From the IMG/VR virus record IMGVR_UViG_3300045993_000099, positions 1 through 21,452 of that record: a stretch of DNA of 21,452 nt; one strand, 5' to 3'. Position 1 is the stretch's first letter. Each line of letters starts with the position of its first letter. Shown here piece after piece: positions 1,471 through 19,306 of the stretch. A program made the position numbers and the translations under genes. The notes beneath the pieces are model-generated. The model searched no databases. It saw only the letters and a list, made by a program, of their open reading frames with translations, and was not told the origin of the DNA. The DNA comes from a virus.

Positions 1471-1496
1471 CACAACACCTTTACCGGAGTAACAAT

Positions 1497-1886
1497 ATGA
1501 GCATACAAGCAACCGCATTAGCCAAGGCATTGGCACTTCTGAAGATCGCTGGCGTGGCACACGCCGTGGTCATTCCTGATGGGGACACCATCGTCACCGA
1601 GGGGTACGAGCTGCGTGCTATCTCAAAGAAACCCGAGTTCCATCCCGATGGGCGCAAGGTACGCGTGTGCACGGTCAAGCGGGGGGTGTTCTACAACGTC
1701 TACTACCCCATGCTCAAGGATCTGGCGGTGGGCAGCATCGCCACCATCACTGTCCCTGATGAGCTGGACACGGAGCGGGTACGCAGCGCTGCCTGCGGGT
1801 ACTGCACAACGGCATGGGGCAAGGGGACGTACATCTCCGAGACTATCGCGCACAGCCACACGATCACAATCGCACGCTGCGCATAA
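1497..1886 (+). CDS. Hypothetical phage protein, 129 aa
   Basis: I chose ATG 1497 because it sits behind GGAG (1486-1489) with normal spacing; the frame stays open back to a TTG at 1401, but that extension would translate the promoter and leader. The protein starts with a helical Ala/Leu-rich stretch ('ALAKALALLK'), continues with short beta-like segments, and has two close Cys (CGYC, about residues 106-109) without a second pair. No known domain is recognised. It is the first gene of the MoxR/VWA transcription unit; its role is unknown. Confidence 0.75.
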   Translation: MSIQATALAKALALLKIAGVAHAVVIPDGDTIVTEGYELRAISKKPEFHPDGRKVRVCTVKRGVFYNVYYPMLKDLAVGSIATITVPDELDTERVRSAACGYCTTAWGKGTYISETIAHSHTITIARCA

Positions 1887-1908: not shown

Positions 1909-3036
1909 ATGAGCAAACTTCTTTCTTCGGCACAAGTCGTATCCCTAATCAAGTCCATCGGACACAAGCGCACTGTGCTTGTCGAGGGCGAGGCAGGCAG
2001 CGGCAAGACATCCATGCACTACGAGCTGGCGGCTTCGCCCGAGTTCAGCACTCACTACGCGCCCGCACCGATTGACTGCACGCAGTTGTCGGATGGTTCC
2101 GTGTGGATGCCTGACATCGACCGCAGTCGTGGTGTGTCGCGTGAGCTGCCTAACGAGCGCTTCGGGGTGAACGATGAGAACCATAAGGGTGTGGAGAACG
2201 CGCGGCCGGCGTTGATATCTCTGGATGAGATCGGCAAGACACGCCAGTTCATCAAGGATGTGCTGGCCCCGATCATCTATGAGCGTCGTGTGGGCGGATA
2301 CTACTTCCCCGAGGGCTCGGTAGTGTGTGGCTTCACCAACCTGACGGACGAGGGGCTGGGCGATCACATGCTGGCGCACCTGCGCAACCGGATCATCATC
2401 GTAGGCATGCGCAAGCCCACCAAGGACGAGTGGCAGCAGAACTTCGCCATCCCGCGCGGGTTGAACGAGAACGTCATAGCGGCTACCGAGATGTACCCCA
2501 TGTGCTTCGACTCGTTCCTTGACTACAAGCCCGGGGGCAAGCACGCAGGCAAGACGCTGGACAGGGACAACACGTACATCAGCAATCCGGCAAACGCGGG
2601 GCAGTTGCAGGTGGTTACACCACGCTCACTGCATGCAGCCAGCGACATCGTGGATGCGCGCGACGGGTTTGACGACACCACGCTGCAGGCTGCGCTGGAT
2701 GGCACGGTAGGCACGGCGTTCGCTGCCAATATCATGTCGATGCTGCGCTTCGGTGACCAGTTGCCAAGCTACGCCCGTGTGGTAGCGGACCCGGCCGGTG
2801 CACCCCTGCCTACCAATGCGACGGCGCAGATAGTGCAGGTGTTCCAGTTCATCAAGCAGGTGCGTGACCGTGACGAGGCAGAGGCGGTGAGTGAGTACGT
2901 CGAGCGCATGAAGCGTGAGATGCAGTCGCTGTTCGTGAACTGCGTGGCTAACAGCAAGGGGCGCTTGCAGGACTTCGCAATGTCGCCGATGTTCAACGCC
3001 ATGCTGGCTAAGAATCGTGCCTTCCTCGGTTCGTAA
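1909..3036 (+). CDS. MoxR-like AAA+ ATPase
   Basis: The protein has a Walker A motif GEAGSGKTS (residues 27-35), a Walker B motif LISLDEIGK (D105, E106) and a sensor/arginine-rich region 'LRNRIIIVGM' near residues 163-172, the layout of MoxR/CobS-type AAA+ ATPases. At 375 aa it fits a single AAA+ module plus a helical C-terminal lid. Family members form hexamers that use ATP to remodel a target, usually with a VWA-domain partner as adaptor. That partner is present two genes downstream (3384-4571). The start has a good SD (AGGAG) before ATG 1909. The last 20 nt overlap the next gene. The fold assignment is strong; the substrate is unknown. Confidence 0.88.
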   Translation: MSKLLSSAQVVSLIKSIGHKRTVLVEGEAGSGKTSMHYELAASPEFSTHYAPAPIDCTQLSDGSVWMPDIDRSRGVSRELPNERFGVNDENHKGVENARPALISLDEIGKTRQFIKDVLAPIIYERRVGGYYFPEGSVVCGFTNLTDEGLGDHMLAHLRNRIIIVGMRKPTKDEWQQNFAIPRGLNENVIAATEMYPMCFDSFLDYKPGGKHAGKTLDRDNTYISNPANAGQLQVVTPRSLHAASDIVDARDGFDDTTLQAALDGTVGTAFAANIMSMLRFGDQLPSYARVVADPAGAPLPTNATAQIVQVFQFIKQVRDRDEAEAVSEYVERMKREMQSLFVNCVANSKGRLQDFAMSPMFNAMLAKNRAFLGS

Positions 3037-3382
3037 GGCTACGCACACATTCCCGTATGGCGGCAAGTTCTATTGCCCCCTGCTGGATGCGACGGGTCGT
3101 ATGAATGTACGTACGGGAGTAGGGTACGGCACCGCAGGCCATCGGACGTTCATGCTGACCATCTATGTCATAAGCGTACTGCACGGAAGCAAGGGCGTCA
3201 AAAACTTCTTCGATGTGCCTGCGAAGCGCTGGTTTATTGACCGAGGCGTGACCGAGGCTGAACAGCTACGACAGTTGGAGTTCGAGTGCAATATCTTGGC
3301 TACACAGTTCGGGCTGGACTATACGTTACGCCTGCCACACAACCCTAGGGCTACGCCCAAGAGTTACTACAAGGAGAACTAA
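3017..3382 (+). CDS. Hypothetical protein, 121 aa
   Basis: The frame opens with a GTG at 3017 that overlaps the ATPase gene; SD support is weak, so an internal start such as ATG 3101 remains possible. The product is basic, with Gly-rich and aromatic stretches ('YGGKFYCP', 'GVGYGTAGH') and a charged helix near residues 75-95. I do not recognise a domain. It lies between the AAA+ ATPase and the VWA protein genes, one base before the latter's ATG, so it is probably co-translated with them. Confidence 0.65.
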   Translation: MPSSVRKATHTFPYGGKFYCPLLDATGRMNVRTGVGYGTAGHRTFMLTIYVISVLHGSKGVKNFFDVPAKRWFIDRGVTEAEQLRQLEFECNILATQFGLDYTLRLPHNPRATPKSYYKEN

Positions 3383-3383
3383 C

Positions 3384-4571
3384 ATGGCATTTAAAGACCT
3401 AACCCTATCAGACAGGCTGATAGCTGTCCACACGGACTTCATGAAGCACCCGGACTTCTGCATACTTGGAGGAGTAACGCAGATCGGCAAGGTGACGGTG
3501 TCCGATGAGGTGGAGACGGCGTGCACCAATGGCGTGGACGCTACGTACGGGGCGGCATTCATCGAGCCCATGACGCGCAAGCAGCTACGCTATCTGGTGG
3601 GGCATGAGAACCTGCACAAGGCGCTGCACCACTGCACCGAGTACATCCCCATAGCCAAGAAGCACCCGGGTGAGTTCGCGCAAGCGGTTGACTACGTGGT
3701 GAACTGGCAACTGGAGTCGATGGACACGGCACCGGACAAGTTCTTGGAGCGGCCCACGAGCATCCCACCACTCATAGACGCCGCATATGCTGACATGAGC
3801 GTACCCGAGGTACTACGGGAGCTGTTGAAGAAAGGCAACAATAGCAGCAAGCAGGCGGGCAAGACTATGGACGTGCACGTCCTTGTCGAGAAGACACCGG
3901 GCAACGAGGAGGAGCTGGATGACGTCAAGCAGAAGATCGAGGATGCCGTACGGCACGGCGAGATCGTGCAGGGGCAGTTGCGCGCAAACATGAGCGGCCC
4001 GGCCGTGGCACTCAATGGCTTTCGCGAGCAGAAGACTGACTGGCGTCCTGCGCTGCGCCGGATCTTTCAGGAGTTCTGCGATGGCGATGGGCAGTCAAGG
4101 TTCAACCCGCCCAACAAGCGCATGCTGCCGCTGGACATCATCATGCCTTCGCACTTCGACGAGATGACGGGCGAGATCATCATTGCCGGTGACACGTCTG
4201 GCTCGATGGTGGGCCACTACCCGCTGATATTCGGCGAGGTGGCACGCATCTGCCAGCAGCTCAACCCCAAGAGCGTGCGCGTGCTGTGGTGGGATACACG
4301 CATCGCAGGCGAGCAGGTATTCACGCAGAAGGACTACCCCAACCTTGCCCGGGCGATGGCTCCCAAGGGTGGCGGCGGCACTACCGTGTCGTGCGTGGCT
4401 GCGTACATCCGCGAGAAGCAGTTCAAACCCAAGGCGGTGATCTTCCTGACCGATGGATACATCGAGAGCGGCTACGAGGTGCCAGCGGGCAATGTAGTGT
4501 GGGGAGTCGTGGGGAATCGTAGCTTTCAGCCGATACGGGGAAAGGTACTTCACATTGACTCAAACGCCTAA
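3384..4571 (+). CDS. HExxH metallopeptidase-like / VWA (MIDAS) protein, DUF2201-type
   Basis: The N-terminal half carries HENLH (H74-E75-H78), a zincin HExxH, followed by 'AVDYVVNWQL' (about residues 101-110), which resembles the downstream D/N ligand segment of DUF2201-type putative metallopeptidases. The C-terminal half has a VWA-like fold with DTSGSM (D270, S272, S274) as the MIDAS motif, a 'GGGGTT' loop and 'FLTDGY'. In this family the VWA part binds a divalent metal and presents a target to a MoxR ATPase, encoded just upstream. Whether the HExxH site cleaves protein is unproven. A charged linker around residues 150-215 joins the halves. At 395 aa the length is normal for such fusions. 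It overlaps the next gene by 17 nt. Confidence 0.85.
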   Translation: MAFKDLTLSDRLIAVHTDFMKHPDFCILGGVTQIGKVTVSDEVETACTNGVDATYGAAFIEPMTRKQLRYLVGHENLHKALHHCTEYIPIAKKHPGEFAQAVDYVVNWQLESMDTAPDKFLERPTSIPPLIDAAYADMSVPEVLRELLKKGNNSSKQAGKTMDVHVLVEKTPGNEEELDDVKQKIEDAVRHGEIVQGQLRANMSGPAVALNGFREQKTDWRPALRRIFQEFCDGDGQSRFNPPNKRMLPLDIIMPSHFDEMTGEIIIAGDTSGSMVGHYPLIFGEVARICQQLNPKSVRVLWWDTRIAGEQVFTQKDYPNLARAMAPKGGGGTTVSCVAAYIREKQFKPKAVIFLTDGYIESGYEVPAGNVVWGVVGNRSFQPIRGKVLHIDSNA

Positions 4572-4986
4572 ACTGCTGGAGACGATACGCGCGTTCGCTG
4601 TATTGGAGGACGCGCAGCAGATGCTCAAAGCAGGGGCTGCTGCCAATCCACAGCATCAGCGCAAGCAGTCCATCATGGCGCACGCACGGCAGGAGCTGGA
4701 CAGATTGAACGGCTCGATCACGGATGTGCCTAATGGCACGCTACGACTGGGCGCGTTCGAGTGGGCTATCAACTCGCCGTGGTATGGCCCTGAACAGACA
4801 TACTACGTAGTGCGCGAGTCGCTGTGGAGCAAGACCATCATCATCACGTTCGAGCCGGGAGCAGGAGACTCGAAAGACCCGCTGCTGTTCACGCTGCACC
4901 TCAAGCCACCGCTGCCGCTGGACGATGTTCATCTCGCTGCAGATACGTACATGATGCTGATTAACCTTACGAGGACGACTGTATGA
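4555..4986 (+). CDS. Hypothetical protein, 143 aa (TTG start)
   Basis: This frame opens with TTG at 4555 inside the end of the VWA gene, about nine bases after AAAGG (4541-4545); the next ATG (4621) would remove a plausible N-terminal helix. Residues 1-50 look helical; the rest has beta-like stretches with many aromatic residues ('WAINSPWYG', 'YYVVRES'). It has no recognised family, membrane segment or metal motif. Its place between the VWA gene and the DUF3150-like gene, with overlaps at both ends, suggests it belongs to the same unit. Confidence 0.6.
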   Translation: MTQTPKLLETIRAFAVLEDAQQMLKAGAAANPQHQRKQSIMAHARQELDRLNGSITDVPNGTLRLGAFEWAINSPWYGPEQTYYVVRESLWSKTIIITFEPGAGDSKDPLLFTLHLKPPLPLDDVHLAADTYMMLINLTRTTV

Positions 4987-5285
4987 GACGTTCCGAATTG
5001 GTAGAGACGATGAAAGGGCCGCACCATCTCAGGCATGTGGCGTTCTATACCCCAGAGGATGTGATCGTGTCTCCGCTGCATATAGCATTTGAAATGGAGG
5101 CGCGTGAAAACCCGGATGCGCGGTACATGAGCGTGATGGATGCGGCAAGCCAGACGCTTGTGCGGGGCAGGTACGTGCCAGCACCGCATGACAGGAGTGA
5201 GAGAAGGGCGGCAGCACAGTGGCTGCTGGACATCGCATGTGCCCGCTACGCATGCGATGCGCGTGTGTTGGATAGCTGGATTTAA
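4983..5285 (+). CDS. Hypothetical protein, 100 aa
   Basis: It starts in an ATGA overlap with the preceding gene. The product is basic and His/Arg-rich, with a helical C-terminal half and a Cys at residue 85 and another at 90; no complete metal site is seen. No family is recognised. It is the last gene before a short spacer and a strong SD for the DUF3150-like gene, so it is probably part of the same polycistronic message. Confidence 0.65.
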   Translation: MRRSELVETMKGPHHLRHVAFYTPEDVIVSPLHIAFEMEARENPDARYMSVMDAASQTLVRGRYVPAPHDRSERRAAAQWLLDIACARYACDARVLDSWI

Positions 5286-5303
5286 TCAACAAGGAGTAAC
5301 AAT

Positions 5304-6188
5304 ATGAGCAAAAACTTTAACCTCAATTCTGTGGGCCTGATCTGTGAGTTCAACGCATCCGTGTGGACGGCGCGTAAGCTCGATCGCAAGGAGTCCGACA
5401 AGGTTGTCGAGGGTGCCGGTGCCAAGAGCAAGGGCGCTGCGCGTGTCAACAAGAACCTGCTGGCAGGCAGGCCCGAGCTGGAGGAGATCGGCCAACTGGT
5501 GACGCGTGCCCGTAACTACGTGGGGGACAACACCCTGCCGTGGAGCGACAGCGGCCAGCGTTTCCTGATCGGCATGCGCTTCCCCGAGTTCGACAAGCGT
5601 GTCGAGGCATTCCGCGACGAGTTCAATTCCAAAGTGGACGACTTCGTTGCGATCTACCCCACGCTCATCACGGCGCAGGCGATGGCGCTGGGCGACATGT
5701 TCAACCGCTCTGAGTTCCCTTCGGCTGGGGAGATTGCAGGGAAGTTTGGCATGACCGTGAGCTACCTGCCGGTACCTTCTGCTGGCGACATACGGGTAGA
5801 CATCGGCAATCAGGCGCAGGAAGAGCTGCGTACCAAGCTGCAGGCACTGGCGGATACCCGTGTCGAGCGTGCCGTGGCAGACATGAACGCGCGCTTCGTC
5901 GATCACCTCAAGCGCATGGCGAAGGGGTTGGAGATGACGGACAAGGTGACCAAGAAGGGCGACCCGGTGGGCAACCGCTTCACCGAGACGCTGGTGACCA
6001 GTGCGTTCGAGCTGTGCGACATGGTGCGTGATTACAACCTGACATCCGACCCGGATCTTGCACACGCCCGTGTCCTGCTGGAGAATGCGTTGTCAGGTGT
6101 TACGGTGCACACGCTGCGTAACGATCTCGATAAGCGCGAGGACGTGCGGGTGGCTGTCAGGGGCATCCTGAACAAGTTCGAAATCTAA
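5304..6188 (+). CDS. DUF3150-like phage protein associated with MoxR/VWA
   Basis: It is a 294-aa, mostly helical protein with a central segment 'TLPWSDSGQRFL' (about residues 77-88), then 'EFDKRVEAFRDEF' and 'LPVPSAGDIRV' (155-165). This order resembles proteins of the DUF3150 type and related phage proteins found beside MoxR-like ATPase and VWA genes. No enzyme motif is visible, so a structural, adaptor or substrate role in the ATPase complex is likelier than catalysis. The start is clear: AAGGAG (5291-5296) before ATG 5304, with the same GGAGTAACAATATGA leader as the genes at 1497 and 17867. The family name is from memory of pattern, not a search. Confidence 0.6.
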   Translation: MSKNFNLNSVGLICEFNASVWTARKLDRKESDKVVEGAGAKSKGAARVNKNLLAGRPELEEIGQLVTRARNYVGDNTLPWSDSGQRFLIGMRFPEFDKRVEAFRDEFNSKVDDFVAIYPTLITAQAMALGDMFNRSEFPSAGEIAGKFGMTVSYLPVPSAGDIRVDIGNQAQEELRTKLQALADTRVERAVADMNARFVDHLKRMAKGLEMTDKVTKKGDPVGNRFTETLVTSAFELCDMVRDYNLTSDPDLAHARVLLENALSGVTVHTLRNDLDKREDVRVAVRGILNKFEI

Positions 6189-6724: not shown

Positions 6725-6999
6725 AACAGAACGTCATCTACAAGACTATCTGGATAGGTGGACGTTACCCAGCCACACCGCCACAGTATGTATCTACCAA
6801 GACTCGGAAGATCAACGCAGTGTTGGAATGCATGACGGCTCCCAGAACATCACATGAGGTTATGGCAGCTACGGGAATATCGCAGAGTAGCGTACTCGCA
6901 ATACTTCTGATGCTGACTGAGACTGGTGAACTGAAGCGAACCGTTATCCCGGCAGTCAGGAACAACTCTATTACATATATCTACGAGAGGGCAACATGA
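6721..6999 (+). CDS. Winged-helix DNA-binding protein, 92 aa
   Basis: ATG 6721 overlaps the preceding stop; a longer in-frame version to 6652 would overlap the zinc-ribbon gene. Residues 30-90 follow a winged helix-turn-helix pattern: helix 1 'INAVLECM', then 'TSHEVMAATGISQSSVLAIL' as helix-turn-recognition helix, then 'GELKRTV' and 'ITYIYER' as the wing strands. It is probably a small transcriptional regulator or other DNA-binding protein of the accessory region. The target is unknown. Confidence 0.65.
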   Translation: MKQNVIYKTIWIGGRYPATPPQYVSTKTRKINAVLECMTAPRTSHEVMAATGISQSSVLAILLMLTETGELKRTVIPAVRNNSITYIYERAT

Positions 7000-7871
7000 T
7001 CCAACTCACCAAAGACCAAGCCAAGCAGATTCTGGATTCGCTGGACTTCCTTGAAGCTGAAAACATGAAGGCAGAACACCATCAAGATTGGGAGGGTCAA
7101 CGCAAAGCTTTTGCAGTCCTCGACATACTCCGTACCGCAATCGCCGCACCGAAAGCGGAGCCTGTTGCTTGGATGCACGAGATAGATGACTACGCGACAG
7201 TGACTACGTACCAGAAAGAGAACAACGAGTTCCAGTATTCGGAGAAGTTTCTTGCTGGATTCACTATCCCCTTGTACACCGCAGCACCCACCATCCCCGC
7301 TCTCGGTGCGGAGCCTGTTGCTTTTCGATTCAACTTTGATGGCTACGGATGGGACTACCGAGACAACGGAAGCGGGTCTAGTTGGCAAGACATGACGAAG
7401 TCTTATCCTGACTCTGAACTGCTCTACACCGCAGCACCCACCATCCCCGCACCGAGAGCGGAGCCGAGTGCACCCAAATGCAAAGACCACCCTGCTGCTC
7501 CTCACGGATTTGACCGCAATGCAAGCCACAACGCACATCGGTATGTTTGTGATTGTGAAGGGTGGCAGGAGCCGAAAGCGGAGCCTGTTGCTTGGTTAAT
7601 GGTAGACGATATTGGCAGACAAGTAGTGCGAACCGAGCAAACAGTACAAACTGAACCTATTGATTCAATTCGATACCAATGGAGAGCATCTACAGCACTC
7701 TATACACATCCAGCTCTAACGCAAGAGCCTATCGCGGAAATAGTTGCGGAGGATATGGGAAAGCCGTTCAACGCGATACAAGTTCGCACCCATTTTTACA
7801 AGCAAGTTCCACCAGTAGGAACAAGACTCTACGCAGCACCCACCATCCCCGCTGAGAAGGAGCAGACATGA
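6996..7871 (+). CDS. Ea22-like modular accessory protein with four 'PVAW...TAAP' repeats
   Basis: A helical N-terminal segment (about 1-50) is followed by four modules that each open with an EPVAW-like strand and close with an LYTAAPTIPA-like turn. The first two open at EPVAW and EPVAF and end in TAAPTIPA; the third opens with EPVAW and ends LYTHPAL; the fourth opens EPIAE and ends LYAAPTIPA. Between modules 2 and 3 sits a Cys/His-containing insert ('CKDHPAAPHG', 'YVCDCEGW'). The same module type is known from Ea22-like early proteins of temperate phages, of unknown function. The repeats are also conserved as DNA, which suggests recent copying. ATGA overlaps occur at both ends. Confidence 0.7.
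   Translation: MIQLTKDQAKQILDSLDFLEAENMKAEHHQDWEGQRKAFAVLDILRTAIAAPKAEPVAWMHEIDDYATVTTYQKENNEFQYSEKFLAGFTIPLYTAAPTIPALGAEPVAFRFNFDGYGWDYRDNGSGSSWQDMTKSYPDSELLYTAAPTIPAPRAEPSAPKCKDHPAAPHGFDRNASHNAHRYVCDCEGWQEPKAEPVAWLMVDDIGRQVVRTEQTVQTEPIDSIRYQWRASTALYTHPALTQEPIAEIVAEDMGKPFNAIQVRTHFYKQVPPVGTRLYAAPTIPAEKEQT
7149..7853 (+). repeat. Interspersed DNA repeats of the PVAW/TAAP modules
   Basis: Two short DNA units recur. The 'gagcctgttgctt' unit is at 7158-7170, 7311-7323 and 7583-7595 (24 nt identical between 7149-7172 and 7572-7595), with a further copy at 8551-8566. The 'gcagcacccaccatccccgc' unit is at 7281-7300, 7431-7450 and 7833-7852, with a 26-nt version shared by 7275-7300, 7425-7450 and 8668-8693. 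They open and close each protein module. Confidence 0.85.
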
Positions 7872-8092
7872 AACCCAATATCAATATGACATGGACGAGC
7901 AGTGAGGGTTCAGAACGTGGTACTGCACTTTACACCAGCGAAGACACCATCTTCCTGAGCCTTGACCTGCCTGATTTTAAGAAGGCCCATGCTATCGCGC
8001 TGGCACTAGATACCGCAGTTGCTGCTGGCTATCACGAAGGCGTAAATGATGCACAGTCAACAATGAACACTGCGCTGAGGAATATGAAATGA
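7868..8092 (+). CDS. Small hypothetical protein, 74 aa
   Basis: It is held between two ATGA overlaps. The first half looks like beta strands ('GTALYTSEDTIFLSLDL'), the second like a helix with 'HAIALALDTAVAAGYHEG'. I recognise no family. It lies between the two genes that share the PVAW/TAAP modules and probably belongs to the same accessory set. Confidence 0.6.
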   Translation: MKPNINMTWTSSEGSERGTALYTSEDTIFLSLDLPDFKKAHAIALALDTAVAAGYHEGVNDAQSTMNTALRNMK

Positions 8093-8877
8093 CCGACACC
8101 ATCACCCTATCCCGAGCCGACGCGCAGGAAAACCTGAACGACTATGGACCAACACTACCAACGAAAGAAGATATGAAATTTAGTACAAAGCCAGTAATTA
8201 TCGAAGCGCGTCAGTTCTTCATTCTCGACAAATCCACACATGACGGTGTTTGTTTTGGTACGCCTGACCCAGAGGGTGAGCAGTACCTAGTGGGTAAATA
8301 CTGGATTCATCGCATTGACGGAAAGTACGAGGTATTTGATGGGGACTACCTAATACGGGGCGCTCAAGCACAGGTACTGGACGTACTCAGGTCTAGAAAT
8401 TTTGAGGCTACATATACGCCAGTGCAATACCTAAGTCCAGATCAAATAGCAACTGCATGGAATGAGACCGCCGATCCAAATGAATGGGATCACGCTTCAA
8501 AGTTCGCTAACGCTATTTTTCAGATAGCGCAGATCAAGGAGCCAAGTGCCGAGCCTGTTGCTTGGATAGAGCATCAATGGTCTGGAACGGGGCAAAAGTA
8601 TCTGCACTTTGAACGCCCTAATGCGACAGTCCGAGATGATGTTGTGAAGCCAATCTGGATACCACTCTACACCGCAGCACCCACCATCCCCGCTGACCAT
8701 GAATTCTGGATAGGTGTTTGCGAGTCGTTGGACAAGAAGGTAGTCGCATGGCGCGTCAGTTTCAACGGCGGTAAGGATTGGACTCTCTATGAACAAGACC
8801 CGCAACCTTCATTGTTTGACAAGAAAGAAGGAATGATTGTCAGGGCGCTTTATGAACTGGAGCAGACACATGAGTAG
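8089..8877 (+). CDS. Ea22-like mosaic accessory protein, 262 aa
   Basis: Residues about 30-115 resemble a small phage domain with a 'VIIEARQF' start and a 'GDYLIRG...NFEATYTPV' end, seen in many phage early proteins of unknown role. The middle is helical. From about residue 153 one PVAW...LYTAAPTIPA module appears, matching the modules in the gene at 6996 at DNA level (8551-8566 and 8668-8693). After it comes a degenerate module ('VVAWRVSFNGG', 'LYEQDPQPS'). It is a clear product of domain shuffling between neighbours. Confidence 0.65.
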   Translation: MTDTITLSRADAQENLNDYGPTLPTKEDMKFSTKPVIIEARQFFILDKSTHDGVCFGTPDPEGEQYLVGKYWIHRIDGKYEVFDGDYLIRGAQAQVLDVLRSRNFEATYTPVQYLSPDQIATAWNETADPNEWDHASKFANAIFQIAQIKEPSAEPVAWIEHQWSGTGQKYLHFERPNATVRDDVVKPIWIPLYTAAPTIPADHEFWIGVCESLDKKVVAWRVSFNGGKDWTLYEQDPQPSLFDKKEGMIVRALYELEQTHE

Positions 8878-9142
8878 TTCTGACATATTGGGACTCACAT
8901 ATAGAGTTCCTGCCACACAATCAAAAGCACTGAGACTTGCAGACACTCTTGACCATGTTCCAAGCACGGTTGGGCACGAAGCAGCCGCAGAACTCCGTCG
9001 CCTTGATGCGGAGAACAAGAGACTGCTCCGAGCAAGGAACCTTTATGAAGCGGCACTCCTTGCAGGCTACCCGAAGGGTGCTTCTGGAGATGTATTTGAA
9101 TTGTGGAACTCTGCGAGAGCAGCACTAGGAGAACAACAATGA
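8870..9142 (+). CDS. Small helical accessory protein, 90 aa
   Basis: I chose ATG 8870 behind GGAG (8859-8862); an in-frame TTG at 8837 would extend into the previous gene without SD support. It overlaps the preceding stop by 8 nt. The core 'EAAAELRRLDAENKRLL' is a coiled-coil helix shared with the gene at 10476 (ELRRLHAEN), followed by a 'YEAALLAGYPKGA' segment. It is a member of the repeated small-protein families of this region; function is unknown. Confidence 0.6.
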   Translation: MSSSDILGLTYRVPATQSKALRLADTLDHVPSTVGHEAAAELRRLDAENKRLLRARNLYEAALLAGYPKGASGDVFELWNSARAALGEQQ

Positions 9143-9573
9143 GCAAAATTATGGAACTGGCTGACGCATACGTACAACTTAGTCGCCACTACTACAGTGC
9201 AGATGCACCAGAAGTAGTAAAAGCCCGAGACGCACTAGCCGCAGAGGTGAGCAAACTGCATCAAGAGCGCGATGCCCTGCGTGAGCAGTTGGACACTCTG
9301 CAAAAGGCACATGACAGCCTACTCTTGTCTGCTAACTTGCGCGTAGGTACTGCTCTGTCTGAGAGAGATGCGGCAGAGGATCAGGTAGCTGCACTGAGCA
9401 AGGATGCTGCGAGGTATCGGTGGTTGCGTGACAACTGCACCAGAATACAAGCGCCAATGTTAGGCGTACTCCTGTGTGTACCAGATAAATGGTTACCTGA
9501 ACACCAGACAACTACGCAGGATGATGACGCAGCCATTGACGCAGATATCGCAGCAAAGGGGGAAGCAGTATGA
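9139..9573 (+). CDS. Coiled-coil RYRWLR-type accessory protein, 144 aa
   Basis: ATG 9139 overlaps the previous stop (ATGA), preferred over the in-frame start at 9103. Residues 35-95 are a heptad-like coiled coil ('EVSKLHQERDALREQLDTL'). A 'DAARYRWLRDN' cassette and an acidic end ('DDDAAIDADIAA') follow. The RYRWLR cassette plus an AIDA-type tail is common in small phage early proteins and recurs here in the gene at 9803. Role unknown. Confidence 0.65.
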   Translation: MSKIMELADAYVQLSRHYYSADAPEVVKARDALAAEVSKLHQERDALREQLDTLQKAHDSLLLSANLRVGTALSERDAAEDQVAALSKDAARYRWLRDNCTRIQAPMLGVLLCVPDKWLPEHQTTTQDDDAAIDADIAAKGEAV

Positions 9574-10178: not shown

Positions 10179-10301
10179 AAAGTACAAAGGAACACAGGCG
10201 AACATTCCAAACGCTATTCCCGACTTGTTTATTGCGTCCCAACTCCGTGAAGCCTATGAGCAGGGGCAGCAGTCTGTCGTTTACACCGACAACAGTGCTG
10301 T
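9912..10301 (+). repeat. 31-bp direct repeat inside the paralogous pair
   Basis: Positions 9912-9942 and 10271-10301 are identical and code SVVYTDNSAV in both paralogues; identity continues after one mismatch. The spacing (359 bp) differs from that of the 39-bp repeat (353 bp), so six bases have been gained or lost between the repeats since duplication. Confidence 0.88.
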
Positions 10302-11726: not shown

Positions 11727-12022
11727 CCCCCGAAGCCCGAGTCAAGACGCAAGTCAAGCGGCTGCTAGTAGAGCGAGGCGTGTACTACTTCATGCCTGCT
11801 GCAAACGGGTACGGACGCTCCGGCATACCCGACATTGTCTGCTGCCACTACGGTCACTTCTTGGCTATCGAGTGCAAGGCAGGTAAGGGCAAGACGACTG
11901 CGCTACAGGATCGCGAGCTGAAGCTCATACATGACGCAGGTGGATGGTCAATGGTAGTAACCGACGACCCCGTAACCTTGGAAGCGCTGGATATGGTGCT
12001 AACAAACATGGAGAACGCATGA
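11723..12022 (+). CDS. VRR-NUC domain nuclease
   Basis: At 99 aa this is a minimal VRR-NUC fold of the PD-(D/E)XK superfamily: an N-terminal Glu (E4), 'GYGRSGIPDIV' (D37), 'LAIECKAGKG' (E50, K52) and Q62 give the catalytic set. Family members cut branched or flapped DNA, Holliday-junction-like structures among them, and stand-alone phage versions are commonly found next to polymerase and helicase genes. ATG 11723 overlaps the previous stop; a longer frame to 11528 is a shadow of the preceding gene. Activity is inferred from intact motifs. Confidence 0.88.
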   Translation: MTPEARVKTQVKRLLVERGVYYFMPAANGYGRSGIPDIVCCHYGHFLAIECKAGKGKTTALQDRELKLIHDAGGWSMVVTDDPVTLEALDMVLTNMENA

Positions 12023-12321
12023 TCGAACTGGAGGATATCGAGATCCTAGACGCACACCCCAGTGCGTCTATTGAGGAGATCAACGCGCTTATCGGCAGCA
12101 TGGACGAAGAGACACGCCTCGCACTGCAAGCGGTATTCGAGACGATGGTTAAGACTATCGCCGGTAAGGCAGGTACCGTTGTCATCGTGATGGATGTATT
12201 CGGTATCGGCCACGCACAGATGCTTGCGCTTGGAGATCCACTGGCGGTACCCCGGCTGCTGGAGGCATCCTCACGCATCGCTGACCATTTATACAAACCA
12301 CAGGACGGAGTACTGCAATGA
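12019..12321 (+). CDS. Hypothetical acidic protein, 100 aa
   Basis: It starts in an ATGA overlap and ends in another with the polymerase gene. The chain is acidic and helical, with a hydrophobic stretch 'AGTVVIVMDVFGIG' (about residues 52-65) that is more likely a buried strand-helix than a membrane segment. No family is recognised. Tight coupling to the polymerase start hints at a replication role. Confidence 0.6.
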   Translation: MIELEDIEILDAHPSASIEEINALIGSMDEETRLALQAVFETMVKTIAGKAGTVVIVMDVFGIGHAQMLALGDPLAVPRLLEASSRIADHLYKPQDGVLQ

Positions 12322-14327
12322 CACAACCCTATAAAAATATCCTCTGCATCGACTTTGAGACGCGCTGGAACAGCAAGGACTACACGCTCTCCAAGATGAC
12401 TACCGAGGAGTACATACGGGATGCGCGATTCAAGGCGTTCGGCGTGTGCATCCACGAGGTCGGCACTGACAAGAAGACGCAGTGGTACGGGCACGACGAG
12501 ATCCCCCGCATACTGGCGACCTACGACTGGAGCAAGACAGCGGCGCTGGCGCATAACTCGCAGTTTGATGCAGCGATACTGTCCATGATCTACGGCGTCG
12601 TGCCGTGCTTCATATTCGACACGCTCTCTATGGGACGTGCACTGCGCGGCGTCGAGGTTGGCAACTCATTGATGAAGCTGGCCGAGGACTATGGTCTGCC
12701 ACCCAAGGGGCATGCCGTGCACAGCACAAATGGGCTGGACGAGATTTCACCCGAGATCGAGAAGGAGCTGGCAACGTACTGCATGCACGACGTGTACCTG
12801 TGCGAGGAAATCTTTGCACGCCTGATGATGCGCCTCGACCCGGACGGCACCACTCACGGACCATACCCGACGAAAGAGCTGCGGCTCATCGACATGACCG
12901 TGCGGATGTACATCGACCCCAAGCTGGAGCTGGATCGGAAGATGCTGGTCAGCGCACTGGAAGAGGAGAAGGAGAAGCTGGAGACTGCGCTCTTGCGTGC
13001 AGATGTGGAGGAAGCTGCACTGGCAAGCAATGAGCACTTCGCCGAAGTCCTGCGCAAGCTGGGCGTGGAGCCGCCGACCAAGACGAGTAAGACCACGGGA
13101 AAGGAGGCATTCGCGTTCGCAAAGAATGATGCCATGTTTCAATCCCTTCTCAACGGAGATGATGAAGACGTGGCACTTTTATGTGAGGCTAGGCTGCGAG
13201 TCAAATCGACTCTGGAGCGCACACGGGCGCAGCGGTTTATCGACATTGCTTCCCGTGGAGCTTTACCAGTTCCCCTGTCTTACTACGGTGCGTCGGTTAC
13301 AGGACGATGGGCTGCTGCAAAAGGTTCAAATATCAACCTACAAAATATGAAACGCGGCTCGTTCCTGCGCAAGGCGATCATGGCTCCGGACGGGTATCTG
13401 ATATGCGTGACCGACTTGTCTCAGATCGAGCCGCGCGTGCTGGCGTGGCTGTCTGACTACGAGGACATGCTGGCGATCTTCCGCGCTGGCGGTGACCCGT
13501 ACGCACGCTTCGGTGCGCCTATGTTCGGTGTCCCGGGCATGACCAAGGATAGCCACCCGATCCTGCGCCAGAGTGCCAAGAGTGCGCTGCTGGGGGCTGG
13601 GTACCAGCTAGGGTGGGCGAGCTTCGCTGCGCAGCTTCTGGTGGGCTTCCTCGGGGCCCCTCCGGTACGCTACGGCAAGGCCGAAGCCAAGCAGTTGGGC
13701 GTGACCAAGGCCGACATCACACGCTTCATGGAGTGGGACGACAACCAGAAGAAGATGAAGGAGATAGCGCACTCGTGCACGGACTACGAGCTGGCTGTCC
13801 ACTGCCTTGCATCCAAGGCGATCATCGACAAGTACCGGGCTGCGGCCGAGCCGGTGGTTAACTTCTGGGGCTTGCTGGGTAACCTGATCGAACACAGCTT
13901 GGTAGGCGGCAAGGAGTATACGCACAAGGGCATCCTGCACTTCTCCAAGGGACGTATCGAGATGGCGAACGGGATGCACATTCGCTACGATGACTTGCGC
14001 CAAGAAAGGGGTGATGACGGGCGCATGCAATACACCTATACAGACGGTAAAAAGCGCGTTAAACTTTATCCCGGCAAGGTGTGCAACAACGTAACTCAGG
14101 GTACGGCGCGCATCATCATGTCTGATGGTTTGCTGCGTGTGCAGAACAAGTATCTAGCGGTAGGTACTGTGCACGATGAAGGCTTGAATTTGGTGCCGGA
14201 GAGTGACTCCAGCACCGCACTGCCGTGGACGATCGGGCAGATGACGAAGGTGCCGAAGTGGATGCCGGGTATTCCGCTAGCTGCGGATGGTGGCATACAC
14301 AAGCGGTATGGTATGGCGAAAAACTAG
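12318..14327 (+). CDS. Family A DNA polymerase with 3'-5' exonuclease
   Basis: It is a 669-aa phage replicative polymerase without the 5' nuclease domain. Exonuclease motifs are intact: IDFET (D12, E14), HNSQFD (N80, D84) and YCMHD (Y154, D158), so proofreading is expected. Polymerase motif A is DLSQIEPR (D366), motif B RQSAKSALLGAGY (R417, K421, Y429) and motif C HDE (H619, D620, E621). Relative to E. coli Pol I, the Tyr after the motif A Asp is Leu, and the Phe of the O helix is Leu (L425), the position linked with ddNTP discrimination in other family A enzymes. A charged stretch at 215-290 forms the thumb region. It acts with the SNF2 helicase, SSB and primase encoded downstream. Confidence 0.95.
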   Translation: MTQPYKNILCIDFETRWNSKDYTLSKMTTEEYIRDARFKAFGVCIHEVGTDKKTQWYGHDEIPRILATYDWSKTAALAHNSQFDAAILSMIYGVVPCFIFDTLSMGRALRGVEVGNSLMKLAEDYGLPPKGHAVHSTNGLDEISPEIEKELATYCMHDVYLCEEIFARLMMRLDPDGTTHGPYPTKELRLIDMTVRMYIDPKLELDRKMLVSALEEEKEKLETALLRADVEEAALASNEHFAEVLRKLGVEPPTKTSKTTGKEAFAFAKNDAMFQSLLNGDDEDVALLCEARLRVKSTLERTRAQRFIDIASRGALPVPLSYYGASVTGRWAAAKGSNINLQNMKRGSFLRKAIMAPDGYLICVTDLSQIEPRVLAWLSDYEDMLAIFRAGGDPYARFGAPMFGVPGMTKDSHPILRQSAKSALLGAGYQLGWASFAAQLLVGFLGAPPVRYGKAEAKQLGVTKADITRFMEWDDNQKKMKEIAHSCTDYELAVHCLASKAIIDKYRAAAEPVVNFWGLLGNLIEHSLVGGKEYTHKGILHFSKGRIEMANGMHIRYDDLRQERGDDGRMQYTYTDGKKRVKLYPGKVCNNVTQGTARIIMSDGLLRVQNKYLAVGTVHDEGLNLVPESDSSTALPWTIGQMTKVPKWMPGIPLAADGGIHKRYGMAKN

Positions 14328-14338
14328 AAAGGAACAAC

Positions 14339-14653
14339 ATGAACATTCCAAGTAGATTCCTGCTTGCAGGCAAAGAGATAACGGTACGCTTGCGACGTGC
14401 CGTAGGGCGCGGGTTGCTGGGGCGCATGTGGCTGGACGTGGGTGTGATGGAGATCGCCACACATCACAAGGGCAAGCTGCGGCCCCTGCGGGGACCGTAT
14501 GGACTGCCACAGACGTTCTGGCATGAGTCTGTGCATGCGATCCTCTATGCGATGGGCAACCCGCTGTACAAGGACGAGGCGTTCGTTAATGCGTTCGCAA
14601 CGCTGCTGACACAGGCGATTGAAACTGCGGAGTTTAATGATGGCCCAGCATAG
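14339..14653 (+). CDS. Small HExxH putative metallopeptidase, 104 aa
   Basis: ATG 14339 sits behind AAAGGAA in the short gap after the polymerase stop; the in-frame extension to 14225 overlaps the polymerase and is rejected. The protein has 'FWHESVHAIL' (H62, E63, H66) and a likely third ligand in 'YKDEAFVNAFATLL' (E80), the minimal zincin pattern shared by small phage proteins of ImmA/SprT-like character. Such proteins may cleave a repressor or host factor; here no partner repressor lies adjacent. The last 14 nt overlap the nuclease gene. Confidence 0.75.
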   Translation: MNIPSRFLLAGKEITVRLRRAVGRGLLGRMWLDVGVMEIATHHKGKLRPLRGPYGLPQTFWHESVHAILYAMGNPLYKDEAFVNAFATLLTQAIETAEFNDGPA

Positions 14654-15305
14654 CTACTCAGGCATCAAGGCGTTCGAGACGTGCCCGCGCCAGTACCATG
14701 ACACCAAGGTGGTGAAGCTGTACCCGCGCGAGGATACGGAGCAGACGCTATACGGCACCGAGCTGCACCGGCAGGCGGAGCTGTACTTGCTGGAGAACCG
14801 TCCGCTGGACAAGTCGTTCGTATTCCTGCAGCCTGTCATGGATAGCCTGAGTGCGATGCCGGGGCGTCGTCTGTGCGAGCACAAGATGGCGTTGACCGAA
14901 ACGCTGCGCCCCTGCGCATTCGATGCGCCTGACTACTGGGTCCGAGGCATCGCCGATCTGGTCATCGTCGATGACGACAACCTGACAGCCCGGGTGTTTG
15001 ACTACAAGAGCGGGGGCAACAAGTACCCCGATACCGATCAGCTCATGCTCATGTCGCTGATGATCTTCAAGCAGTTTCCGCACATCCGGCGCGTAACTGG
15101 TGGGTTGCTGTTCGTGCTCAAGAATACCGTGTCCAAGTACAAGGTAGAGCGCGAGCAGGAGAACGGGCTGTGGTGGCGCTGGAGAGAGCGTGTGGCACGC
15201 CTCGACAACGCATTCACCCACGGCATGTGGCCGGAGAGAAGTTCAGGGCTGTGCAAGCAGTACTGCCCTGTTGTGCAGTGTCATTTCAACGGAAGGAGAG
15301 GTTAA
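14640..15305 (+). CDS. PD-(D/E)XK nuclease, Cas4/RecB-like, with Cys cluster
   Basis: The signature runs in order: 'SYSGIKAFETCPRQYH' (C15), 'GTELHRQAE' (H43), 'GIADLVIV' (D106), 'VFDYKSGG' (D121, K123) and 'QLMLMS' (Q134). C15 with C205, C209 and C214 (CKQYCPVVQC) gives the four-Cys arrangement that holds an iron-sulphur cluster in Cas4 and AddB-type nucleases. It is likely a DNA exonuclease acting in phage recombination or DNA end processing. ATG 14640 is chosen for 7-nt spacing from GGAG (14629-14632); ATG 14637 is the alternative. No cas genes or CRISPR array are near, so a role in adaptation is not supported. Confidence 0.85.
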   Translation: MAQHSYSGIKAFETCPRQYHDTKVVKLYPREDTEQTLYGTELHRQAELYLLENRPLDKSFVFLQPVMDSLSAMPGRRLCEHKMALTETLRPCAFDAPDYWVRGIADLVIVDDDNLTARVFDYKSGGNKYPDTDQLMLMSLMIFKQFPHIRRVTGGLLFVLKNTVSKYKVEREQENGLWWRWRERVARLDNAFTHGMWPERSSGLCKQYCPVVQCHFNGRRG

Positions 15306-15680
15306 ATGGCGGCGCGTACCTACGCAGATAGACGCGAGTACCTGCTTGAGTACAACCATAAGTGGCGCGCAGCTAATAGGGAGAAGCGCGCAGAAGCGGC
15401 CAGAATTTATAGGCTTGTACACCCCGAAGTAGCCGCCGCTGCGTGGCGTAAGTTTAAGGACAGTGACCCAGCGCGAGCTAAACAACAGATGATAAAGGCT
15501 ACACACAATGCTACAAAAAATGTTACTCCCGCATATGTAGCAGGTACTTTGCGTATGCCACTAGCAGAGGTGTCAGAAGCGTTATTAGAATTAAAACGAG
15601 AGCAGTTAAAAACTGCCAGAGTACTACAGCAACTTAAACAAACCATAGAGGTATTAAATGAAACACGCAGCAGTAACTGA
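15306..15680 (+). CDS. Conserved-type phage protein, 124 aa
   Basis: It has a strong SD (GGAAGGAGAGG) before ATG 15306, which directly follows the nuclease stop. The N-terminus 'YNHKWRAANREKRAEAARIY' resembles the basic repeat found before phage HNH nuclease domains, but no HNH core follows. The C-terminus 'VTPAYVAGTLRMPLAEVSEA' then 'LLELKREQLKTARVLQQLKQ' resembles the tail of other phage proteins of unknown role. The second half is notably AT-rich. It could be a DNA-binding relic of a nuclease. Confidence 0.65.
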   Translation: MAARTYADRREYLLEYNHKWRAANREKRAEAARIYRLVHPEVAAAAWRKFKDSDPARAKQQMIKATHNATKNVTPAYVAGTLRMPLAEVSEALLELKREQLKTARVLQQLKQTIEVLNETRSSN

Positions 15681-15957
15681 TATATCAATGCACACAGTGG
15701 CAACTACCCCCAGCGTAGTAAGCGCGATAACTTCTTTTGGGGACGCCCGGCGCATGCTGTTGGATGTTATTCAAGAGCTACGCAACGGGGAGATGTCTGT
15801 AGATCGTGGACTGGCGATTGCCGCTACGATGAAAGTTGTGAACGACAACATAAACTCTGAAATCAACGCTGCAAAAATGTGCGTTATGACAGAAGGTACC
15901 GCCCATGAGTTCGGAAAGGTCGTGGTCATGGGGCGCAGATTAATTGGAACCAACTAG
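15658..15957 (+). CDS. Hypothetical protein, 99 aa
   Basis: ATG 15658 is behind GAGG (15647-15650) and overlaps the previous gene by 23 nt. The protein has a helical centre ('ARRMLLDVIQELRNGEMSVD') and 'AIAATMKVVNDNINSEINAA', a pattern known from small phage proteins located near replication genes. No catalytic motif is seen. Confidence 0.6.
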   Translation: MKHAAVTDISMHTVATTPSVVSAITSFGDARRMLLDVIQELRNGEMSVDRGLAIAATMKVVNDNINSEINAAKMCVMTEGTAHEFGKVVVMGRRLIGTN

Positions 15958-15963
15958 GAGATC

Positions 15964-16239
15964 ATGATGCCTAAATCATCTGCCAAGAAATTGGCGTTCC
16001 AGAAAGAATACAACGCCCGCCCCGAGAACGTCAAGAAGCGGGAAGAGAACAACCGCGCTAGACAAGCGGCGCTGCGTGCGGGTACCGCACACAAGGGTGA
16101 CGATACACAAGTCGATCACATCACCCCGCTCGATGTCGGTGGCACCAACGCCCCGAAGAACCTGCGTGTCATCAAGCGCAGCACCAACGAGGCATGGCGC
16201 AAGCGACAGCCGAAGATGTATGGCCCTAATGGTAAGTAG
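15964..16239 (+). CDS. HNH endonuclease
   Basis: After a basic helical N-terminus the protein has 'QVDHITPLDVGGTNAPKN' (D51, H52, G59-G60, N62, N66) and 'STNEAWRK' (N75), the HNH/HNN nuclease core, without the two CxxC pairs that some members have. It is a metal-dependent DNA nicking or cutting enzyme; in phages such genes are either homing endonucleases or part of DNA processing. ATG 15964 and ATG 15967 are both possible; GGAG at 15957-15960 gives better spacing to 15967. Confidence 0.82.
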   Translation: MMPKSSAKKLAFQKEYNARPENVKKREENNRARQAALRAGTAHKGDDTQVDHITPLDVGGTNAPKNLRVIKRSTNEAWRKRQPKMYGPNGK

Positions 16240-16241
16240 CA

Positions 16242-17804
16242 ATGGAAGTACTAGACAACAAAGCCCTACGCATACGGACGCGAAGTCCGGACAAGTTCAA
16301 GATCATCCCCAAGCACCATGTACAGGCGGTGGATGGCGGATATGAGGTGACGGTTTACTGGGGGTTGGACGAGGCGCGAGTTCTGCAAAACTTGGGCGTC
16401 AAGAATGTACCTTCGCCTATCGTACGTAAGTACCAGTGGCCGGGGCGCTACACCCCGATGGCACACCAGAAAGTAACCGCTGCATTCATAACCATGCACC
16501 GCCGTGGATTCGTATTCAACGATCCCGGTACAGCCAAGACGATGAGCGCACTGTGGGCAGCAGACTACCTGATGAAGCGCGGTGACGTGCGCAGGTGTCT
16601 GGTGATATGCCCGCTGTCGATCATGCAGTCAGCGTGGATGGGGGACATCATGAACAGTGTTATGCACCGCAGCGCTGTAGTGTGTCATCACGACAAGGCG
16701 TCGAGACGCATCGAGATGATCCAAGACGACTACGAGTTTGTCATCATCAACTACGACGGGCTCGCGCTGGTCGCCAAGGAGATCGTGGCAGACGGCCGGT
16801 TCGACATGGTCATCGTGGATGAGGCAAACGCCTATGCGCTACCATCGACGAAACGCTGGAAGGCGCTGGCTAGTATCCTTCGCCCCGATACGTATCTGTG
16901 GATGATGACGGGCACGCCTGCCGCACAGTCTCCGGTCAACGCATACGGGCTAGCGAAGTTGGTGAACCCCAGCAACGTCCCTGCCTACATGACGTCATGG
17001 CGCGACAAGGTGATGAACAAGATCACCACGTTCAAGTGGGCACCCAAGTACAACGCCAAGGAGTTGGTGTTCGCTGCACTACAGCCCGCGATACGTTTCA
17101 GCAAAGCAGACTGTCTGGATCTTCCCCCAGTGCTGAAGACGGTGCGCGAGGTGCCGATGACTGCGCAGCAGGCCAAGTACTACCAGAAGATCAAGACGGA
17201 TATGCTGGTGGTGGCGGCGGGGCAGACGATCAGCGCGGTGAACAAGGCCGCAGTCGTGAATAAGCTGCTTCAGATAAGCTGTGGTGGTGTGTACAGCGAG
17301 GACGGTGAGGTGGTGGAGTTCGATGCCACCCCGCGTATGAACCTGTTGCTGGAGATACTGGCAGAGACGAACCGCAAGGTGCTGATCTTCGCCATGTATC
17401 GCTCAAGCATCAGCACCATAGAGACGTTCCTCACTAAGCACGGAATCGCTATCGGCTCCATCCACGGAGGTGTACCGGCGCATAGGCGTGGGGAGCTTAT
17501 CAATCAGTTCCAGCACACGCCCTCGCCGATGGTGATGGTCATGCAGCCACAGGCATCTGCACACGGGATCACGCTGACCGCTGCGGACACCGTAGTGTTC
17601 TTCGGACCGTTGATGAGTATCGAGTTATACCTACAATGTATAGCCCGAGCAGATCGCAAGGGGCAGAACTCTGACAAGGTAACCGTTGTGCATATTCAAA
17701 GCAGTCCGATAGAAAAGAAGATGTTCGATGCGATGAACACCCGCGTGAATGACCACGCACTATTGACCGAGATGTTTGACGCAGAAATGGAGGTGAATAA
17801 ATAA
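16242..17804 (+). CDS. SNF2-family DEAD/DEAH-like helicase
   Basis: It is a 520-aa superfamily 2 ATPase. Motifs: Q76 region, motif I NDPGTAKT (94-100), motif Ia 'LVICPLSIMQSAW', motif II DEAN (193-196), motif III TGTPA (223-227), motif V 'ASAHGITLTAADTVVF' and motif VI 'QCIARADRKGQ' (465-475). The last is diagnostic of SNF2-like translocases. Unlike the usual GKT, motif I reads AKT, and motif II is DEAN in place of DEAH. Phage members act as DNA translocases in replication or recombination. There is no clear SD before ATG 16242, which lies 2 nt after the HNH stop, so reinitiation is likely. Confidence 0.92.
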   Translation: MEVLDNKALRIRTRSPDKFKIIPKHHVQAVDGGYEVTVYWGLDEARVLQNLGVKNVPSPIVRKYQWPGRYTPMAHQKVTAAFITMHRRGFVFNDPGTAKTMSALWAADYLMKRGDVRRCLVICPLSIMQSAWMGDIMNSVMHRSAVVCHHDKASRRIEMIQDDYEFVIINYDGLALVAKEIVADGRFDMVIVDEANAYALPSTKRWKALASILRPDTYLWMMTGTPAAQSPVNAYGLAKLVNPSNVPAYMTSWRDKVMNKITTFKWAPKYNAKELVFAALQPAIRFSKADCLDLPPVLKTVREVPMTAQQAKYYQKIKTDMLVVAAGQTISAVNKAAVVNKLLQISCGGVYSEDGEVVEFDATPRMNLLLEILAETNRKVLIFAMYRSSISTIETFLTKHGIAIGSIHGGVPAHRRGELINQFQHTPSPMVMVMQPQASAHGITLTAADTVVFFGPLMSIELYLQCIARADRKGQNSDKVTVVHIQSSPIEKKMFDAMNTRVNDHALLTEMFDAEMEVNK

Positions 17805-17805
17805 G

Positions 17806-17845
17806 TTTGTCAAGAATTGAACAAACATTAAATTTGCGGTATAGT
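17806..17845 (+). promoter_or_regulatory. Sigma70-like promoter with operator-like element
   Basis: TTGAAC (17817-17822) and TATAGT (17840-17845) are separated by 17 bases, a good sigma70 match. The upstream TTGTCAAG (17807-17814) and the ACAAA after the -35 repeat the element at 1412-1430 (TTGTCAAG, three variable bases, then T-AACAAA). The left part forms an imperfect inverted repeat with TTGAACAA. This would start transcription of the 17867 and SSB genes, with a leader of about 15 nt. Confidence 0.6.
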
Positions 17846-17866
17846 TCTCGAAAACGGAGTAACAAT

Positions 17867-18289
17867 ATGACAGACGAAACAGCCAAGACCTTACCAGATA
17901 TTCCTATGGATAAACTGGCAAAAATTTACATCAGGATGCGCGACAAGCGCTCTGAACTCACACGCGACTACGAAGCGCAGGACGCCGCCATCAAGGCCCA
18001 GCAGGACGAAGTCGCATCCGCAATGAAGGAGATCATCCGCGCAGCAGGCGGCACCAGCATGGGCACTGCGCACGGGACGGTATCCCTCAAGACCAGCAAG
18101 CGCTACTACGCGCAGGACTGGGACGCAATGGGCAATTTCATTATCGAGCACGCTGCGCCGCAGTTGCTGGAGAAACGTATTGCGCAGAGAAACATGGACG
18201 AGTTCTTGGAGGTCAACCCCGGCGTTGTCCCTCCCGGCCTCAACATCATGTCAGAGATCACAGTGTCAGTAACTAAACCACGTACGTAA
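17867..18289 (+). CDS. Conserved-type phage protein, 140 aa
   Basis: ATG 17867 follows GGAG (17856-17859); the in-frame extension to 17807 would translate the promoter and is rejected. An N-terminal coiled-coil-like helix ('KIYIRMRDKRSELTRDYEAQ', about 24-43) precedes 'GTVSLKTSKRYYAQDWDAMG' and an 'LEKRIAQRNMDEFLE' helix, ending in a beta hairpin 'GLNIMSEITVSVTK'. This pattern is common in phage proteins encoded just before the SSB-like gene; it has no assigned function. First gene after the promoter at 17806. Confidence 0.7.
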   Translation: MTDETAKTLPDIPMDKLAKIYIRMRDKRSELTRDYEAQDAAIKAQQDEVASAMKEIIRAAGGTSMGTAHGTVSLKTSKRYYAQDWDAMGNFIIEHAAPQLLEKRIAQRNMDEFLEVNPGVVPPGLNIMSEITVSVTKPRT

Positions 18290-18298
18290 GAGGAAACC

Positions 18299-19306
18299 AT
18301 GAGCAACATTCAAGTATTCAATCCCGGCCAACTCCCTGCCTTTGCTAAAAAGGGTGAACTCTCCGCTATCGCCAAGGCGTTGGCTGGCGGCTCGATGCAG
18401 ACCGGCAAGCGCATCTCCATCAAGGGTGGCGTGTTCCGCCTGATCGCTGATGGCAAGGAAGTCGCAGCCATCGACGAGCGCTATCTGGACGTGGTGGTTG
18501 TCAATGCCGCACCGAAGGTGTCCCGCACCTTCTACGCTGGCGTGTACAACGAGAACAACCCGACTCCTCCTGCCTGCTACAGCTCGGACGGAGACAAGCC
18601 CGACGCTACGGTCAAGGCACCTCAGTGCGCCAACTGCGCACAGTGCCCGCAGAACGTCGCTGGCTCCGGTCAGGGTGACTCCCGCGCCTGCCGCTACGGT
18701 CAGAAGCTCGCCGTGGTGCTGGCGAACGACATGGAAGGCGACGTGATGCAGCTCCAGTTGGCTGCGACATCGCTGTTCGGCAAGGCCGATGGCGACAACC
18801 GCCCCATGCAGGAGTATGCCAAGTGGCTCACCGCGCAGGGCATCGACCCCACGATGCTGGTGACGCGCCTGAAGTTTGACACCAAGGCTCCCACTCCCAA
18901 GCTGTTCTTCAAGGCGATGCGCTGGCTGACCGACGAAGAGTTCGCGATGACGCAGGATAAGGGCAAGTCGAAAGACGCGCTCAACGCCATCCACATGACG
19001 GTGGCACAGACAGACGGCGTGCAGGCACCGGCACCAGCGCCGTTCACTGCTCCCGGCAACCCGCCCAAGTTAGCGAAGCCGGCACCCGCACCTGCAGCGG
19101 ATGACGAGGACGACGAGCCGCCAGCACCTGCGCCCAAGGCCACACGCGCAGCCAAGGTAGCGAAGCCGGCACCCGCACCTGCAGCGGATGATGACGAAGC
19201 TCCGGCACCGGAGCCGACCGTACGCAAGGCGGCAGCAGCCGCACCGACAGCGGTGCCTGCAGCCAGTGGACTGGCGCAAGCTCTGGCCGACTGGGACGAC
19301 GAATAA
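18299..19306 (+). CDS. Probable single-stranded DNA-binding protein
   Basis: Residues 40-240 form a compact domain with 'SIKGGVFRLI', 'LDVVVVNAAPKVSRTFYAG', a Cys set (C93, C110, C113, C116, C131; 'CANCAQC') and 'LFFKAMRW'. It resembles a widespread phage protein family found beside primase and helicase genes. From about 245 to 320 the chain is Pro/Ala-rich with a repeated 'KPAPAPAADD' unit, and it ends in 'LADWDDE', an acidic aromatic tip like those by which SSBs recruit partners. The SSB role is inferred from the linker-plus-tip layout and neighbourhood, since no OB fold can be proven by eye. The zinc site is a likely structural element. A terminator follows. Confidence 0.6.
   Translation: MSNIQVFNPGQLPAFAKKGELSAIAKALAGGSMQTGKRISIKGGVFRLIADGKEVAAIDERYLDVVVVNAAPKVSRTFYAGVYNENNPTPPACYSSDGDKPDATVKAPQCANCAQCPQNVAGSGQGDSRACRYGQKLAVVLANDMEGDVMQLQLAATSLFGKADGDNRPMQEYAKWLTAQGIDPTMLVTRLKFDTKAPTPKLFFKAMRWLTDEEFAMTQDKGKSKDALNAIHMTVAQTDGVQAPAPAPFTAPGNPPKLAKPAPAPAADDEDDEPPAPAPKATRAAKVAKPAPAPAADDDEAPAPEPTVRKAAAAAPTAVPAASGLAQALADWDDE
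19071..19191 (+). repeat. Two direct repeats coding the KPAPAPAADD linker unit
   Basis: A perfect 34-nt repeat is present at 19071-19104 and 19158-19191, 87 bases apart start to start, so in frame. It codes AKPAPAPAADD twice. The DNA identity at silent positions points to a recent duplication of a linker unit instead of selection on the protein alone. Confidence 0.85.

Follow-up and report, generated by a model that had tools for sequence, protein, structure and literature searches.

A conserved AAA+, zincin-like/VWA and DUF3150-like gene trio in a phage genome fragment and its relatives on plasmids

Three large genes of a phage genome fragment, encoding an AAA+ ATPase, a DUF2201 protein that joins a putative zincin-like domain to a VWA domain, and a DUF3150-like protein, are well supported as one functional unit, and homologous trios are also carried by plasmids. 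The fragment (hereafter the window) is the IMG/VR record IMGVR_UViG_3300045993_000099, positions 1 to 21,452, and a DNA-level search of its 21,452 nt found no match among named phages. An ORF check of the window confirmed six cassette ORFs where a first-pass annotation, made by a model from the sequence, had placed them, all on the plus strand and nearly contiguous (Table 1). The motifs that this annotation had read in the three large genes (intact Walker motifs in the first, a MIDAS and an HENLH motif in the second) and its reading of the third as DUF3150-like were likewise borne out.

Table 1. Positions of the cassette genes, the adjoining small gene and the downstream module in the window.
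Feature	Position	Strand	Basis
Small protein, 131 aa, candidate fourth component	1491..1886	+	family adjoins cassette in many relatives
AAA+ ATPase, MoxR/midasin-like kind, 375 aa	1909..3036	+	phrog_1297; midasin AAA match; Walker A/B conserved
Small lineage-specific ORF, overlaps AAA stop	3017..3382	+	relatives in 7 loci only
DUF2201 protein, 395 aa: putative N-terminal zincin-like domain (HENLH 74-78) and C-terminal VWA domain with intact MIDAS	3384..4571	+	PF13203; PF09967; conserved residues; model
Small lineage-specific ORF, overlaps VWA stop	4555..4986	+	relatives in 7 loci only
Small lineage-specific ORF	4983..5285	+	relatives in 5 loci only
DUF3150-like, mostly helical protein, 294 aa	5304..6188	+	relatives' PF11348 matches; model; fold matches
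DNA-metabolism module: endonuclease-like, DNA polymerase I-like, exonuclease, HNH, DNA helicase, others	11738..19306	+	matches to phrog_93, phrog_17, phrog_69, phrog_62 and HNH

Two surveys of gene neighbourhoods support the linkage of the three large genes, which had been proposed as a conserved unit. First, a scan seeded with DUF3150 returned 66 viral contigs and one seeded with the AAA protein added 2 more; in 61 of these 68 all three genes share a strand and follow the order AAA-VWA-DUF3150, and the remaining 7 begin at or within the cassette, so that every contig with room for the trio has it. Second, at least 566 viral contigs matched when the VWA family was the seed, and among the 80 kept for analysis DUF3150 sits beside the VWA gene in 78, the other two stopping 240-360 nt past it. 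Phage contigs share ancestry, and many of the counts in these surveys are therefore not independent. A further scan, seeded with the VWA protein of a Burkholderia phage, found nothing. Two loci (L153 and L144) have a shuffled gene order in which the trio stays adjacent, and in cyanophage MinM2 and the plasmid loci the order is AAA-DUF3150-VWA; MinM2 and the plasmids are more independent support for the linkage than are related phage contigs. Compared with three relatives, the three large genes give dN/dS values of about 0.16-0.32 and are under purifying selection.

The co-occurrence of the cassette genes in phages that the first-pass annotation expected thus holds for the three large genes and fails for the small ones. 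The ORFs at 3017, 4555 and 4983, put forward as adaptors or substrates, look coding, yet they are confined to the closest relatives, and such a role as conserved components is not supported. A better candidate for a fourth component, overlooked at first, is the small protein encoded just upstream of the AAA gene; profile matches place its family next to the cassette at 37 of 69 loci and at 18 of 67, mostly between VWA and DUF3150. The family evolves fast (17-30% aligned identity to the window copy), and the window protein had no match in Pfam or the PDB; comparison with the three small ORFs showed them not to be related to it. Farther upstream, positions 3-1034 hold an M20-type peptidase gene truncated by the start of the window, which we ruled out as a part of the machine since it is present in few loci. 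In its place, 42 relatives have near the AAA gene a gene for an unrelated protein of 328 aa whose family is unknown.

The AAA protein matches phrog_1297 (annotated 'ATPase') in PHROGs at 1e-31. Across about 70 aligned relatives the Walker A lysine K33 and the Walker B pair D106/E107 are invariant or nearly so, the conserved residues being G27, G32, K33 and D106, with E or D at position 107. No Pfam AAA model is reached by the window protein at its cutoff; its relatives give weak Pfam matches to AAA_5, AAA_2 and AAA_22, and the best solved-structure matches of their profile are midasin AAA modules (3e-15). The name MoxR, applied at first, is therefore a loose label: the Walker motifs and the VWA neighbour agree with it, but Pfam assigns the protein to no AAA family at cutoff and the midasin modules are the closest structures, and the protein is better termed MoxR-like than a filed MoxR member.

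The DUF2201 protein exceeds the Pfam cutoffs for both PF09967 (5.7e-11) and PF13203 (8.7e-10), and its HENLH motif and its MIDAS (D270-S272-S274-T333-D357) were both confirmed. Residues H74, E75, H78, H83, D103 and N107 are kept in all of the 78-79 copies that cover them, bar one badly aligned plasmid row. Because these catalytic-type residues are conserved, the predicted peptidase activity is plausible. The structure model (pLDDT 81) shows short strands, then the helix that bears HENLH, then the VWA domain. A fold search of this model against the PDB matched VWA domains, with no metallopeptidase among the matches listed, and so left the zincin fold unconfirmed by that route; the putative zincin-like fold is based on the match to DUF2201_N, on the HExxH motif and on the modelled secondary structure. 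An assignment as HNH endonuclease is not supported for the window protein, in which Pfam shows only DUF2201 domains above cutoff. That label is attached to phrog_1314 in PHROGs and to gp25 of phage N4 (NC_008720 11164-12306) in RefSeq, where Pfam and the motifs do not support it; a loose HNH pattern found no match in N4 gp25.

The DUF3150-like protein itself scores 16.6 bits against PF11348, under the 24.9-bit Pfam cutoff. However, 27 of 31 of its relatives match PF11348 (best 1e-8), and one 51%-identical relative, from a metagenome-assembled genome, scores 27.1 bits and passes the cutoff. A fold search with its model (pLDDT 74) gave significant matches to viral proteins only, eight of them at 2e-6 or better and one of these named DUF3150; against the PDB nothing fell below 0.2. 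The protein is well conserved, with a median of 58% identity among representatives, and no mention of DUF3150 was found in the literature searched. On a Manganitrophus plasmid (L076, 5854-8876) AAA, DUF1257, DUF2997 and DUF3150 genes stand in a row; here DUF3150 accompanies a Cdc48/FtsH-like AAA protein without such a VWA protein, and DUF3150 therefore has other contexts as well.

Trios are also present on Burkholderiales and Rhodovastum plasmids, near PRTRC, conjugation (T4SS) or partition genes. A homologous AAA/DUF3150/VWA set is carried by IncC, IncT, Citrobacter and Vibrio plasmids, where its neighbours encode SSB, a Bet or RecT protein and an exonuclease of the lambda type. The IncC, IncT and Vibrio set resembles that of the window in its three components and in the combination of an HExxH motif (near residue 60) with a VWA domain bearing a DxSxS MIDAS, and differs in its neighbours and in having, in its genomic copies, a CbbQ-type AAA protein and a CobT-like VWA protein that matches CobT models. 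The AAA and VWA proteins of these recombination-linked plasmids belong to other subfamilies, with weak profile links to those of the window. The DUF3150 families of the phage and plasmid sets, in contrast to an unrelated control (0.44), align by HHalign at 7e-8, and phages and plasmids alike retain the catalytic-type and MIDAS residues. Among plasmids, 1168 matches were found to the DUF3150 of the recombination-linked set and 1234 to its VWA protein, and the two counts are almost the same genus by genus. In the accessible part of the IncC and SXT literature searched, no function was found for the trio genes.

As in MoxR AAA+/VWA pairs, the window encodes Walker A and B motifs alongside a MIDAS-bearing VWA protein, and as in the phage pairs of an AAA+ and a peptidase-vWA protein, the metallopeptidase-type domain is N-terminal to VWA. 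The AAA/peptidase-VWA pair is already known, while the trio with DUF3150 was not found described. The pair belongs to the core of N4-like phages (PMC4193335): N4 gp24 and gp25 (Schitoviridae) match the AAA and VWA profiles at 1e-72 and 5e-76, and gp25 has HELWH and DTSGS where the window protein has its HExxH and MIDAS motifs. Unlike in the window, no DUF3150 was detected near gp24/gp25, and the Schitoviridae relatives are just ~22-28% identical to the window proteins. In group 2.2 jumbo phages an AAA+ gene likewise adjoins one for a vWA protein with an N-terminal metallopeptidase domain (Iyer et al. 2021; PMC7824862); the accessible text of that paper mentions no third partner and proposes a role in virion assembly. 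NorQ/NorD and CbbQ/CbbO also pair an AAA+ protein with a VWA adaptor whose MIDAS is needed for client activation, but their clients are metabolic enzymes, and neither an HExxH domain nor DUF3150 is described in the parts of those sources consulted. In the vWA-MoxR ternary conflict systems (Kaur et al. 2020) the third component is VMAP, iSTAND or FtsH-type, whereas the third gene of the window is DUF3150-like by sequence and fold search.

The surroundings of the phage cassette belong to DNA metabolism. In relatives the trio is followed, as in the window, by genes for an endonuclease-like protein, a DNA polymerase, an exonuclease, an HNH protein and a helicase. One related phage contig, of 69 kb, has the cassette within its replication arm and the recognised virion genes (terminase, portal and tail-fibre) on the opposite strand.

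We tentatively favour, at somewhat less than even confidence, a reading in which the trio is one ATP-driven protein-remodelling machine that acts on the element's own replication or recombination complexes. The AAA+ protein would form a ring on which the VWA protein docks, the MIDAS metal would grip an acidic residue of the target, ATP hydrolysis would pull the target apart under strain, and cleavage by the fused zincin-like site may follow. DUF3150 could serve as a subunit for choosing or presenting the target, or might itself be a regulated substrate. The likely target would be a protein-DNA complex of the element's replication or recombination, containing for example an annealing protein, SSB or a nuclease. 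The ring, the VWA docking and the metal grip are proposed by homology and by analogy with NorQ/NorD and CbbQ/CbbO, in which a VWA adaptor works with an AAA+ ring and its MIDAS holds an acidic residue of the client (PMC9976466, PMC4660213). The DNA-metabolism target is the least certain step. We infer it solely from the genes that lie nearby in phages and in plasmids, which are a weak guide to what the machine acts on. The Burkholderiales plasmid trios lie by PRTRC and T4SS genes and not by recombination genes. Also counting against the full model, N4-like phages keep the AAA/VWA pair without a detectable DUF3150, and DUF3150 is therefore not always needed. A broader proposal, possible but rather doubtful, is that the trio is a general mobile-element machine whose phage and conjugative-plasmid versions are shared by descent, in which the AAA+ ring, the zincin-VWA adaptor and the DUF3150 subunit would dismantle or clip nucleoprotein complexes in single-strand-annealing recombination or replication.

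Host takeover or counter-defence, in which the machine would disable a host protein or a defence complex, had been suggested by the first-pass annotation and appears unlikely to us. The carriers, phages and conjugative plasmids, are both exposed to host defences, the peptidase-type residues are conserved, and conflict roles are known for other ternary MoxR-vWA systems (PMC7159879). However, nothing in the data points there specifically: five window proteins compared with the PADLOC models of anti-phage defence gave no match to these known families, DUF3150 is well conserved whereas conflict proteins often diversify, and the strict linkage suggests housekeeping.

A little less probable again is a virion-assembly chaperone-protease, in which the pair, with DUF3150, would fold and clip structural proteins during particle maturation. 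Maturation of a phage protein was among the roles first considered, and it has a precedent: Iyer et al. propose virion assembly for the MoxR and peptidase-vWA pair of group 2.2 jumbo phages and draws on Acidianus two-tailed virus (PMC7824862). Remodelling of replication or recombination complexes is nonetheless favoured, because conjugative plasmids carry the trio and make no virions and because the cassette of the 69-kb relative lies in its replication arm; the N4 homologues gp24/gp25 are, moreover, middle genes (PMC4193335). Metal-cofactor insertion by a CobS/CobT-like chelatase or a NorQ/NorD-like activity is very improbable, for although the plasmid-type VWA relatives match CobT models and MoxR-VWA pairs elsewhere insert metals (PMC9976466), no cofactor enzyme was recognised in the window or is annotated beside most plasmid sets, and the HExxH motif would be left unexplained.

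The trio is common: besides the viral contigs that match the VWA family, the related DUF3150 or VWA protein has matches in more than 1,100 plasmid records, and the trio's relatives include part of the backbone of IncC plasmids. The link between phages and plasmids poses a testable question, namely whether a chaperone-peptidase acts on recombination proteins, and coliphage N4, with gp24/gp25 as a core pair, is a convenient laboratory model in which to address a part of that question.

Two further observations concern the DNA between the cassette and the downstream module. Two ORFs at 6996-8877 contain repeated 'AEPVAW' and 'LYTAAPTIPA' segments, visible as direct repeats of 36-41 nt. The small ORFs at 9103-10479 have common duplicated stretches of 34-60 nt with 77-90% identity, a pattern that suggests gene duplication.
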